Source: Geothrix terrae
GTDB taxonomy: Bacteria > Acidobacteriota > Holophagae > Holophagales > Holophagaceae
Reading direction: 5' to 3'
Assembly (NCBI RefSeq): GCF_022808775.1
Contig: NZ_JAKZLA010000001.1
Span: forward strand, 558,001 to 622,000
Length of the DNA: 64,000 nt
The notes beneath the pieces were generated by a model. That model saw nothing but the letters and a program-made list of their open reading frames with translations. It was not told the DNA's origin and made no database searches. Shown here one piece after another: positions 39,625 through 44,617 of the stretch. Position numbers and translations under genes: made by a program. Position 1 is the first letter of the stretch, and each line of letters begins with the position of its first letter.

Positions 39625-40302
39625 ATGAGGCTCCTGTTGGTCGAGGATGATGAGCGGGCTGCGACGGCCCTGGAACGAAGCCTCCGGGAGCAGGGATTCT
39701 CCGTCGAAGTGGCACTGGATGGGGTGAACGGCTTGGCCGCCGGGAAGTCGTCCTCCTTCGACTGCCTCATCCTGGACGTGATGTTGCCTGGGATGGATGG
39801 CTTCTCCCTCCTCTGGGAACTGAGGGCGGCCGGCGTGCAGACACCCGTCATCTTCCTGACGGCCCGGGACGCCCTTCCCGACCGAGTCCGGGGCCTGGAG
39901 CTGGGTGGAGGGGACTACCTGGTCAAGCCGTTCGCCTTCTCGGAACTGCTGCTGCGGATCAACAACCTGCTCGCCCGCGGAACCTCCGCCACACCCAAAC
40001 CCTGGGTCATCGGAGACCTCACGGTGAACCCCTTCCAGAGGAAGGTCTACCGTGGGGCGGACCGCCTCGACCTTAGCTCGCAGGAATACGCGCTGCTCGA
40101 GCTCCTCGTCCGGAATGCCGGGCACATCGTGACCCGGACCCGGATCGCCGAGGAGTTGTGGGACCTTTCCTATCAGGGCGATCCGAACCTGGTGGACGCC
40201 GCTGTCCGCCGGCTGAGGAAGAAAGTGGATGATCCCTACCCACGCAAGATCATCCAGACCCGGCGGGGCGTGGGCTATCTGGTCGAGCCTGGCCATGATT
40301 GA
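39625..40302 (+). CDS. OmpR/PhoB-family response regulator, 225 aa
   Basis: The receiver domain (1-115) has acidic pocket E7-D8-D9, phospho-acceptor D51 (LILDVMLPG), T79 in FLTARD and K101 in DYLVKPF. The C-terminal winged helix (128-222) contains LSSQEYALLELLVRNAG and RRLRKKVDDP, then RGVGYLVE. It most resembles CusR/CopR-like metal-responsive regulators. Its stop overlaps the kinase start by 8 bp. Direct repeats at 41659-41689, upstream of the cytochrome genes, are a plausible binding site. Confidence 0.92.
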   Translation: MRLLLVEDDERAATALERSLREQGFSVEVALDGVNGLAAGKSSSFDCLILDVMLPGMDGFSLLWELRAAGVQTPVIFLTARDALPDRVRGLELGGGDYLVKPFAFSELLLRINNLLARGTSATPKPWVIGDLTVNPFQRKVYRGADRLDLSSQEYALLELLVRNAGHIVTRTRIAEELWDLSYQGDPNLVDAAVRRLRKKVDDPYPRKIIQTRRGVGYLVEPGHD

Positions 40303-41650
40303 AACCCTGCGCCGGTCGATGCTCCTGCACCTGGCCCTGATCTTCGCCGCGGGGATGTCCTTGGTGGTGGGCGGCGCGGGGCTGTACCTGCATGCCTCCG
40401 TGACCCACGCGGTCTATGCCCAGGTGAACCGGGATCTGATTGATTCCGCCCGGCTGACCCTCCACCGGCTCGAAGAAGACAAGATGGGGCTGGACAAGGA
40501 ACTTCTGGATCTCGGAGACAACGTCTACCTGCGCGTGATGAGGCCCTCGCGGGAGGTGGTCCTCGAAAGCAAGGACATGTCCCAGCTCCTGCCGAGGGAA
40601 GCCCCGGTGCCGCTGGGCTCATGGCTCTGGTGGGAGAGCCCCCGCAAGTCGCCTATCCGGGTCAAGGTCGTCTCCTTCCGCTACCAGGGCGGATGGATCC
40701 AGCTCGCCAGGGACATGCACCCGGAGGAAGGGGTCCTGAAGGACTTCAGGAGGTCCCTCCTCGTCCTCCTGTCCATCATCCCGTTCGCATCCGCAGCCCT
40801 GGGTTTCGGCCTGCTCAGCCTGGGCTTCCTGCCCCTCGAACGCCTCCGATCCAAGGCGGGGGACATCGGTCCCGAGACGCTGCAGTCCCGCATCGATCCC
40901 TCGCCCTTCCCGAAGGAGCTCGACCCGCTCGTCCAGACCGTGAACCAGGCCCTGGGCAAGCTGGAGTCTGGCTTCACGCGCCTTTCCGAGCTGAACAGCG
41001 ACCTCGCGCACGAGCTGCGGACGCCCGTGCATGCCCTCCGGCTGGAGTGCGAGAGCCTGCTCTCCCGCGGGGATCTCACAGAGCAGGCGATGGATCAGCT
41101 CGAGTCCATGATGGAGACTCTGGTCCACATGGGAGCCGTGATCGAGCAGATGCTCGTCCTGGCCAGGTTCGAGGATCCCTCCACCAGCATCACCCCTGTC
41201 CTTCTCCAGGCGGGTGCCCTAATCCGGGAGGCCGTCGCGCCCTTCGAGCCCCTGGCCGAGGAGAAGGGGCTCGCCATCGAACTGGCCTCGTCGCGGGGGC
41301 TGTCGTTCATGGGCGATGCGACCCTGCTCAAGCGGGCCCTGCACAACCTGCTTGGGAATGCCATCCGGCACGCGCCCGAAGGCTCGCGGATCCGCCTTTC
41401 GGCGTTGCGGGAGGGCGATGCCGCGGTGCTCGCAGTGTCCGACCAGGGGGAGGGCATCCCGGCCGGTGTGTTGGGCCAGCTCGGCAGGCGCTTCGTCCGG
41501 GAGGACGCCTCGCGAAGCCGCCAAAGCGGGGGCGCCGGCCTAGGCCTCGCCATCGTCCACGGCATCGCCCGGCTCCACGGAGGAGCGCTATCCCTGCAGA
41601 GCACGGAGGGCCGTGGCACCGTGGCGAAGATCACAATCCCGACACCCTGA
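40295..41650 (+). CDS. Membrane sensor histidine kinase, CusS-like, 451 aa
   Basis: TM1 is at 12-32, a periplasmic sensing loop at about 33-152, TM2 at 155-180, then a HAMP-like linker (LGFLPLERLRSKAGDI). The phosphorylation site is H239 in LNSDLAHELRTPVHAL. The ATPase has the N box LLKRALHNLLGNAIRHAP, G1 VSDQGEGIP and G2 SGGAGLGLAIVHGIA. It forms a pair with the overlapping response regulator gene. The sensed signal is unknown; the downstream cytochrome genes suggest a redox or metal cue. ATG 40295 was chosen because the overlap is normal and TM1 follows at once. Confidence 0.92.
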   Translation: MIETLRRSMLLHLALIFAAGMSLVVGGAGLYLHASVTHAVYAQVNRDLIDSARLTLHRLEEDKMGLDKELLDLGDNVYLRVMRPSREVVLESKDMSQLLPREAPVPLGSWLWWESPRKSPIRVKVVSFRYQGGWIQLARDMHPEEGVLKDFRRSLLVLLSIIPFASAALGFGLLSLGFLPLERLRSKAGDIGPETLQSRIDPSPFPKELDPLVQTVNQALGKLESGFTRLSELNSDLAHELRTPVHALRLECESLLSRGDLTEQAMDQLESMMETLVHMGAVIEQMLVLARFEDPSTSITPVLLQAGALIREAVAPFEPLAEEKGLAIELASSRGLSFMGDATLLKRALHNLLGNAIRHAPEGSRIRLSALREGDAAVLAVSDQGEGIPAGVLGQLGRRFVREDASRSRQSGGAGLGLAIVHGIARLHGGALSLQSTEGRGTVAKITIPTP

Positions 41651-41766: not shown

Positions 41767-43323
41767 ATGCACGAACCCCGACGTTTAGCGTTGGCCAAGG
41801 CGGTCAGGAAGGCTCTGTCCTTCGCCGCCCTGGCTGCCCTGGCCATGCACCTCATGCCCGTGGCCAAGGCCGTTCCCTCGTTCTCCCGCCAGTACGGCCA
41901 GAAGTGCTCGGCCTGCCACAATCCCTGGGGTGGCCTCACGCCTGCGGGCGCAACCTTCAAGCTCAGCGGCTACCGGGCCATGAACGGCCGGGACCTCAAG
42001 CCCGTCAATCCTGAGATCGAGATCACGAAGGACTTCAGCCTGCCAGGTTCCCTGCCCTTGTCCATCATCACGGGCGTGGGCCTCGAGAGTCGCACCGAAA
42101 AGCGAGAAGCGGCCGTGGGACGGTCCCCCGAGGTCACGTCCAAGGGCACGTCACTCGCCCTGGAAGACCTGAGCATCTTCCTAACCTCCTCCATGGGCAA
42201 GCACTTCGCCTACTTCATCGAATTTCCCATGTACGAGACCAAGGCCTGGGAATTCACCCCCACCGGCAACTACGAAGCCCGCTACAACACGAACCCCGAC
42301 CGGCAGATCAAGTTCGCCACGGAGATCCCCAGCTTCGAGGTGGCTAAGTTTTTCTGGAACAACCTCTTCGGCGATGCCGCGCCGCGTGACAGCGTGAACC
42401 TGCTCGCCGGCATCACGCACCCGCCCTTGGCCTACTCACCCGGCAAGGTCCGGCTCTCGGTCAATCAGTACCTGGTCTACGAGAGGACCGCGCTCGACCT
42501 GATCAGCCCCCGGAAGGTGGAGGACGTGGTGGGCGGTGAACCCAACGACTCCATATTCCGCTTGAGCGAACCCCAGGTCCTGGCGGAAGCCTTCGGCATG
42601 CTGACCTTCGGCAAGCCGGTCACCGACGTGGGCAAGAAGGAGACCTTCTGGGCCGAGTACCACGTCGGCATCTCGAACGGCGCGAACGGCAAGGCGGCGA
42701 ACAATGCCACGCCCAGCTGGTATGGCCGCTGGGTCATGCGCTACTACGGCCAGTCCCTGGGTGTCTTCGGCTGGAAGAGCACGGACTCCTACAGCGACAA
42801 GATCCGCGCCACCGCGTCCCTGGCGAACCCCAGCGGCATCATGTCCGGCCTCAACAACCCGAACCAGGTGACCCGCTTCGGCCCCGACATGACCCTGAAC
42901 CTGGCGCCCTGGGGCATCCCCGTCAACCTGGAGAACCAGTACATGGTCAACCGGGAAAGCAACCCCATGGGCTTCGGGAAGGCGTTCAAGTGGAAGGGCG
43001 GATTCCACCAGATCAACTACCGCCCCACAAGCACCCAGGCCCTGTACGCGCGCTACGACTACCTCAAGGGCGATCCCTATGACGACACCAGCGTGACCCT
43101 GAACGGCAACACCGGCATCACGCGCTCCACCCCGAAGGAGAGCGACTGGATCTTCGGCTACCAGCGCATGATCCAGGAGCACATCAAGTGGGTGTTCGAG
43201 TACCGGCACCACCAGTTCGATGACCTGGCCCTGGGCGGCGTCATCCCCACGCTCGGGGTTGCCACCAACCCGGCCCGGCTGACCGACGACGGGTTCACCG
43301 CGAAGTTCATGTTCGGCTTCTGA
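41767..43323 (+). CDS. Outer-membrane beta-barrel protein with N-terminal heme-c motif, 518 aa
   Basis: A long export signal (ALSFAALAALAMHLMPVAKA) ends near residue 35. A single heme-c attachment motif C47-S-A-C50-H51 follows within QYGQKCSACHNPWGG. The rest (about 90-518) is a barrel-like series of amphipathic strands (FWAEYHVGISNGANG; WYGRWVMRYYGQSLGVFGW; LYARYDYLKGDPYDDTS) ending in FTAKFMFGF with terminal F. This combines an electron carrier with a pore and may place a heme at the inner mouth of an outer-membrane channel. AGGAGGAAG precedes ATG 41767. It leads a cytochrome/ferredoxin cluster behind a two-component system. Confidence 0.8.
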   Translation: MHEPRRLALAKAVRKALSFAALAALAMHLMPVAKAVPSFSRQYGQKCSACHNPWGGLTPAGATFKLSGYRAMNGRDLKPVNPEIEITKDFSLPGSLPLSIITGVGLESRTEKREAAVGRSPEVTSKGTSLALEDLSIFLTSSMGKHFAYFIEFPMYETKAWEFTPTGNYEARYNTNPDRQIKFATEIPSFEVAKFFWNNLFGDAAPRDSVNLLAGITHPPLAYSPGKVRLSVNQYLVYERTALDLISPRKVEDVVGGEPNDSIFRLSEPQVLAEAFGMLTFGKPVTDVGKKETFWAEYHVGISNGANGKAANNATPSWYGRWVMRYYGQSLGVFGWKSTDSYSDKIRATASLANPSGIMSGLNNPNQVTRFGPDMTLNLAPWGIPVNLENQYMVNRESNPMGFGKAFKWKGGFHQINYRPTSTQALYARYDYLKGDPYDDTSVTLNGNTGITRSTPKESDWIFGYQRMIQEHIKWVFEYRHHQFDDLALGGVIPTLGVATNPARLTDDGFTAKFMFGF

Positions 43324-43346
43324 TCCTGCGCCGAGAGGATGACACC

Positions 43347-43661
43347 ATGCGTTCGACTTCCCTCCTCCCACTGATCTCCGTCGCGTTCCTTGCCACGGCT
43401 GCTCCCGCCTTCACGGCGGAAGACAAGACCGCGGATCCAGGTGCCCAGGTGTTCCAGGGCTCGTGCCTGACCTGCCATAAGGGGAACCAGTCCCTCGACC
43501 AGGTTCGCCTGACGCGGGACAAGTGGAAGGAGGCAGTCGATCGCATGGCGGATTCGGGCTTCCTGGATCCGGTCCCCTCCAAGGAAAAAGTGAACCTCCT
43601 CCTGGATTACCTGGCGAAAGAAAAGGGCCCAGTCGATCCTGGGAACGCCTCCAAGAAATAG
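43347..43661 (+). CDS. Small periplasmic monoheme c-type cytochrome, 104 aa
   Basis: The signal peptide (TSLLPLISVAFLATAAPAFTA) is followed by heme site C40-L-T-C43-H44 in FQGSCLTCHKGN. The mature protein is only about 80 aa and ends in a lysine-rich tail. M68 in VDRMADSGF is a candidate sixth ligand. It resembles class I monoheme carriers with the quinohemoprotein-type SCLTCHKG pattern. It probably shuttles electrons in the periplasm to or from the porin-cytochrome encoded 23 bp upstream. Confidence 0.85.
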   Translation: MRSTSLLPLISVAFLATAAPAFTAEDKTADPGAQVFQGSCLTCHKGNQSLDQVRLTRDKWKEAVDRMADSGFLDPVPSKEKVNLLLDYLAKEKGPVDPGNASKK

Positions 43662-43774: not shown

Positions 43775-44407
43775 ATGAACGAGCACGACATCGCGAAGGG
43801 CCTCGAGGTCTGGGGCCTCCAGACCCTCCTGGATGCTTCGATCCTCTTGGGGATCCTGGCCTCCGGCTTGCTCCTCGCCCAGGGCTACTATCGCGGGCTC
43901 AACCGCCACCTGAGCCTCCGAGTGTCCCGGGAACTCTGGGATCTGCTCACCGTGCTGCTGCCGGACCTGATCCTGGCGGCCCTCTTCCTGGTGGGCTACG
44001 CAGTCCTGAATCCCGACATCATGGCGGACATCAAGATGGCCGTGCCCTTCTACCCGCTCGCCACCCTGCTCTTCGCCTGGGCCTTCATCCTCCGGTTGTT
44101 CAAGGGGGGCCACGAGGCCGGATCTTCCGCGTTCCACCGAGCGCTCCGGCTGACCCTGATCGCCAACGCCATCAACATGGTGGGCTTCACGTTCATCGCA
44201 GAAGCGGCCAGCGAGGAATACCTCGTCCATCACGCCAGCCCTGTCTGGACCTACCTGAAGACCCACTTCCGCTCCAACGCGGACCCCGTTGGCCTCGAGG
44301 TCTCCCAGGGCACGTTCTATATCTGCTTCCCCATCCTCCTCCTTCTCGGCGCGTGGGGCGTGAAGTTGGCTCTGGCAGGCATGAAGGCCCGCCAGAGCCA
44401 GGACTGA
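43775..44407 (+). CDS. Five-TM inner-membrane protein of unknown function, 210 aa
   Basis: Hydrophobic helices lie at about 15-37, 52-78, 84-106, 118-144 and 182-205. Histidines near the membrane (H108 region KGGHEAG, FHRAL, LVHHASPVW, LKTHFRSN) could bind heme b, but there is no clear family signature. I do not recognise it. The ATG at 43775 has only a weak GAGG upstream. After the TGA stop (44405-44407, context TGAC) the same frame stays open and encodes a dicluster ferredoxin, so readthrough would give a membrane-anchored ferredoxin of about 280 aa. Its neighbours suggest a redox role. Confidence 0.65.
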   Translation: MNEHDIAKGLEVWGLQTLLDASILLGILASGLLLAQGYYRGLNRHLSLRVSRELWDLLTVLLPDLILAALFLVGYAVLNPDIMADIKMAVPFYPLATLLFAWAFILRLFKGGHEAGSSAFHRALRLTLIANAINMVGFTFIAEAASEEYLVHHASPVWTYLKTHFRSNADPVGLEVSQGTFYICFPILLLLGAWGVKLALAGMKARQSQD

Positions 44408-44410
44408 CCC

Positions 44411-44617
44411 GTAGGTTGGGCCTGGACCCTGGACGAGCAGGCCTGCGCAGGTTGCGGCATCTGCGTGGACCTGTGTCCCCACGGCGCTCTGGAGATGGCC
44501 CCAAGCCAGGTCCGCCCTGCGGCCGTCCTGGGCACCTGCACGGGGTGCATGGCCTGTGCGGAGGACTGCCCACTCGACACCATCATCCTCTGGCAGAGCG
44601 CCCTTCCCTGCCCCTAG
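44411..44617 (+). CDS. Dicluster 2[4Fe-4S] ferredoxin frame lacking a normal start codon
   Basis: Reading from GTA 44411 gives VGWAWTLDEQACAGC..., with cluster motifs CAGCGICVDLCP and CTGCMACAEDCP, both perfect CxxCxxCxxxCP, and a TAG stop at 44615. The spacing and length (about 68 aa) are normal for a bacterial ferredoxin, so the frame is surely under selection. No ATG, GTG or TTG occurs between the preceding TGA and the first cluster; CTG 44429 is the only near-start. AGGA at 44399-44402 is well placed for a start at the GTA codon. Options are a GTG-to-GTA change, CTG initiation, or readthrough of the TGA from the in-frame membrane gene. Confidence 0.6.
   Translation, partial: VGWAWTLDEQACAGCGICVDLCPHGALEMAPSQVRPAAVLGTCTGCMACAEDCPLDTIILWQSALPCP

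Follow-up and report, generated by a model that had tools for sequence, protein, structure and literature searches.

In the genome of Geothrix terrae, a gene for a five-helix membrane protein is followed, in the same frame behind its stop codon, by the reading frame of a dicluster ferredoxin. These are very probably two separate adjacent genes, with the start codon of the ferredoxin at 44411 changed to GTA and a product that is weak or missing, and without any involvement of readthrough. The sequence-only reading of this DNA had left the choice between programmed readthrough, a drifted start at 44411 and initiation at a CTG. The window in what follows is the whole analysed stretch of 64,000 nucleotides, and its relevant features are listed in Table 1.

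Table 1. Features of the membrane protein/ferredoxin junction and of the surrounding gene cluster, in window positions
Feature	Position	Strand	Remarks
OmpR-type response regulator and histidine kinase	39625..41650	+	head of the cluster
Exported 518-aa protein	41767..43323	+	one N-terminal CxxCH (VPSFSRQYGQKCSACH)
Small c-type cytochrome	43347..43661	+	one CxxCH; several Geothrix relatives have it in the same cluster
Five-helix membrane protein gene	43775..44407	+	210 aa, ATG to TGA; no Pfam or NCBIfam family match
AGGA, Shine-Dalgarno-like	44400..44403	+	7 nt ahead of 44411, within the 3' end of the membrane gene
TGA stop of the membrane gene	44405..44407	+	TGA, TAA or TAG in relatives
GTA codon	44411..44413	+	position of the ATG, GTG or TTG start of relatives
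Dicluster (8Fe) ferredoxin reading frame	44411..44617	+	68 codons counted from GTA, TAG stop
CTG, alternative start proposed earlier	44429..44431	+	use would lose the conserved W-x-W segment

What can be read directly from the junction? The base next to the TGA is C, and the frame behind it runs through 69 codons (44408-44614) to a TAG at 44615-44617 and contains two CxxCxxCxxxCP motifs, as had been noted before. The codons from the TGA to the first cysteine are CCC GTA GGT TGG GCC TGG ACC CTG GAC GAG CAG GCC, and this listing bears out that ATG, GTG and TTG are all absent from the frame of the window ahead of the first cluster. In-frame starts lie only within the ferredoxin (GTG 44465, ATG 44495 and ATG 44549), and none of them can give a complete two-cluster protein. 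The correct spacing of the AGGA for a start at 44411 was also confirmed, and the expectation that gene callers would miss this ferredoxin is reasonable. A conserved small gene can escape annotation through one codon.

An open frame of at least 69 codons follows 20% of all stops in the window (67% GC) and is unremarkable alone, so its significance rests on the homology of the ferredoxin. The first cysteine of motif 1, CAGCGICVDLCP, is at 44444 and that of motif 2, CTGCMACAEDCP, at 44537. Pfam Fer4 was matched with E 7.6e-12 and several dicluster models scored above their cut-offs, which means that the motifs are not a product of chance. By its motifs and Fer4-type profile the frame is a 2[4Fe-4S] dicluster ferredoxin, with predicted cluster binding and electron carriage. 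Bacterial ferredoxins of this type (Pfam Fer4 / Fer4_9 / Fer4_10) share with it the two CxxCxxCxxxCP motifs and the small size. In contrast to them, the subfamily of the window has an N-terminal W-x-W and adjoins the membrane protein in the collected relatives, and the window copy has an altered start codon. No second copy of the ferredoxin was detected in the genome, only weak matches (37-52% over part) to larger proteins, and Fer4_5 membrane ferredoxins were not found there.

Relatives of the membrane protein were gathered by a search of the genus, one scan of a genome collection, and searches at the class and phylum levels. Besides Geothrix and further Acidobacteriota, the source genomes carried the labels Planctomycetota, KSB1, Verrucomicrobiota, Calditrichia and Krumholzibacteriia. 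In the genus of the window the membrane protein is present in only 7 of 47 genomes, the genome of the window included. A full dicluster ferredoxin follows the membrane gene in 27 relatives, drawn from Acidobacteriota and at least five further phyla. It is a separate gene in all 27 and fused to the membrane protein in none, and its start is always ATG, GTG or TTG, 10-13 codons ahead of the first cysteine. The sequence-only reading had named, as a refuting result, homologues with plainly started ferredoxins and no link to the membrane gene. Such starts were indeed found; the link, however, is kept, as the two genes are tightly adjacent.

The gaps between the genes are mostly -4, -1, +2, +3, +4 or +6 nt, with exceptions of +12 nt (L017) and of +211 nt in L034, which is unlike the other members in this respect. 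The pair thus has the conserved overlap or short gap of a termination-reinitiation layout, and short gaps are the range in which this process works (PMC10666635). The pairs described there resemble those of our relatives in their overlap or short distance from stop to start, and the window differs from them in its non-standard downstream start, GTA. From the gene spacing it is predicted that translation of the ferredoxin depends on the membrane gene.

Could the in-frame arrangement instead serve programmed readthrough of the TGA, giving a membrane-anchored ferredoxin? The in-frame layout and the TGA-C context of the window would suit this explanation, which we nevertheless consider extremely improbable. 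Fused relatives do not exist among those collected, and an arrangement with both parts in one conserved frame and the second part lacking its own start was not found in them. About half of the relatives have the ferredoxin in a different frame from the membrane gene, whose stop varies between TGA, TAA and TAG, the last two occurring also in same-frame relatives. G. oryzisoli likewise has TGA followed by C, yet its ATG comes two codons on. Fusion by readthrough was rejected on these grounds: independent starts in 27 relatives, varied stops, and about half of the loci out of frame. Recoding of UGA as selenocysteine is unlikely as well, because the profile search of the genome for selB gave no match above the cut-off (best match 189 bits, cut-off 242). 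The same-frame layout results from a spacing of 3 nt and not from a design for readthrough, and conservation does not extend to the TGA itself. What looked like readthrough in a bacterium is thereby explained by two ordinary genes lying 3 nt apart.

The drift of the start at 44411 is, in contrast, supported by comparison of the junctions. Geothrix and some other loci have a stop, one codon and ATG, and others a 4-nt overlap or an out-of-frame gap. For example, the junction is TGA CCC ATG in G. oryzisoli, TGA TCC ATG in G. limicola and TAG CGG ATG in a Planctomycetota locus, and in the window it is TGA CCC GTA. At the position equivalent to 44411, the Geothrix/Holophagaceae loci with this stop-plus-one-codon layout have ATG in four other cases and GTA in the window only. 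The start has also moved in two Geothrix loci (L005 among them), where TAA TTC AAG GTG places it one codon later. An error of base calling or consensus, with GTG or ATG as the real codon, is improbable. GTG is one base away and stands at the equivalent position in two relatives (L040, L049), but to obtain GTA from the ATG of Geothrix two errors within one codon are needed, and the adjoining codons also differ naturally (ATG GCC versus GTA GGT).

The CTG at 44429, proposed earlier as another start, is the best near-start codon in the frame and has a weak upstream anti-Shine-Dalgarno pairing (-4.8). Initiation there is very improbable: it would remove the W-x-W, which is present in the window and conserved in nearly all members, and no relative starts at this point.

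If the start has drifted to GTA, ribosomes terminating at the TGA (44405) would be held by the AGGA (44400-44403), seven bases from the GUA, and would re-initiate at the GUA (44411) very inefficiently. The ferredoxin would then be made at a low level, or its production would have stopped recently. The calculated duplex of this AGGA with the anti-Shine-Dalgarno sequence is -4.6 kcal/mol, within a range of -0.1 to -9.5 among the relatives. GUA has reportedly been described by Haggerty and Lovett in 1997 as a defective start in E. coli recJ. In that mutant, as in the window, GUA replaces a normal start codon; the recJ case, however, is a laboratory mutation, whereas the window belongs to a wild genome and its GUA lies behind an adjacent upstream gene.

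Two outcomes of the changed start have to be weighed. One is early decay of the gene, in which the start is really gone and ferredoxin production has ceased; we regard this as possible, with somewhat less than even odds. GTA at the start position agrees with it, and so does the deviation of this ferredoxin, the largest in the family: 6 of 28 well-conserved columns depart from the consensus, against at most 4 in every other member. Additional support comes from L025, a locus of a different Acidobacteriota genome: the membrane-protein paralogue there is accompanied by no more than a ferredoxin remnant, with an internal deletion and a single cluster. However, all eight cysteines and the W-x-W are retained in the window, internal stops are absent, and the branch-average omega is well below 1.

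The other outcome, a functional GTA at which coupled ribosomes initiate at a low but sufficient rate, is possible, if somewhat doubtful. The correctly spaced AGGA, the TGA 3 nt upstream, the coupling geometry conserved among relatives and the retained sequence constraint are all consistent with it, but in E. coli GUA initiates poorly (the recJ precedent), and it may be too weak for any useful product and is used by none of the relatives. A functional GTA is also favored by work in E. coli, where re-initiation at non-AUG codons was demonstrated using mutant initiator tRNAs (PMC2268962). A still stronger suggestion, which we consider rather unlikely, is that this natural GUA start is kept working by coupling under purifying selection and holds the ferredoxin low relative to its membrane partner. 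Initiation at this GUA, if it occurs, would make the locus a natural experiment on the extent to which coupling compensates for a poor start codon.

How much divergence has accumulated in the window ferredoxin? It is 50-53% identical to its Geothrix relatives, compared with mostly 60-70% for Geothrix ferredoxin pairs with similar membrane-protein identity. When its branch was scaled on the membrane-protein tree, the best fit was 2x the expected length (2dlnL 5.8, uncorrected), an acceleration that is not significant after correction for the eight branches tested. On the same branch omega = 1 was rejected (2dlnL about 11), with a support interval of roughly 0.05-0.3, whose limits are loose owing to saturation at synonymous sites. 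In comparison with G. oryzisoli, 11 of 14 four-fold sites of the ferredoxin differ, and the corresponding values for the regulator, kinase and CxxCH-protein genes are 0.31-0.36. Given this unusual four-fold divergence, the length of the ferredoxin branch may stem, at least in part, from divergence of long standing or from recombination and not from decay. The pattern of divergence and constraint is compatible both with a recent loss and with continued use at a weak level.

The membrane protein itself is 78% identical to its G. oryzisoli counterpart. Its family occurs in several phyla, has the near-invariant motifs LNPDIMADIK and LRVSxE, and is without a curated family model. The predicted structure is fairly confident (pLDDT 81); Foldseek gave nothing for it at E <= 0.001, its VIA-align matches were generic helical bundles, and a sequence search for relatives of solved structure found none. 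The protein was not found in plasmids or in viral contigs. Its pairing with the ferredoxin across several phyla appears to be undescribed. Within a cluster that includes c-type cytochromes and would be under two-component control, the pair probably exchanges electrons between the ferredoxin of the cytosol and a redox step in the membrane. It occurs in several phyla, in many cases after two-component genes, and merits study as an uncharacterised redox module of the membrane.

In the window and in several Geothrix relatives the gene order is response regulator, histidine kinase, CxxCH protein, cytochrome c, membrane protein, ferredoxin. The 518-aa CxxCH protein had no Pfam or NCBIfam matches; it appears similar to Cyc2-type cytochrome-porins, and together with the small cytochrome it may form a Cyc2-type cytochrome-porin system. 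At the same place of the cluster, L009 (2368-3813) and L012 (2593-3930) have a different large CxxCH protein (26-30% identical). The regulator, kinase and CxxCH protein of the window are 88-93% identical to those of G. oryzisoli (L008), and the following three products 64% (cytochrome), 78% (membrane protein) and 55% (ferredoxin). A recombination breakpoint near 43330 is possible, judging by these identities.

In Calditrichota the pair often lies behind a two-component system, of the OmpR type in L068, L069, L016 and L070, and cytochromes are absent. Several Calditrichota loci have an exported protein similar to 3-keto-disaccharide hydrolase after the pair, and in some of them DsbD and an AcrB-family pump are neighbors. 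In L025 (genome G091) the membrane-protein paralogue is a second copy, and the ferredoxin remnant follows it at about 2140-2230; here the internal deletion has joined the two cluster motifs (CTGCLQCETECP), so that one cluster is left.
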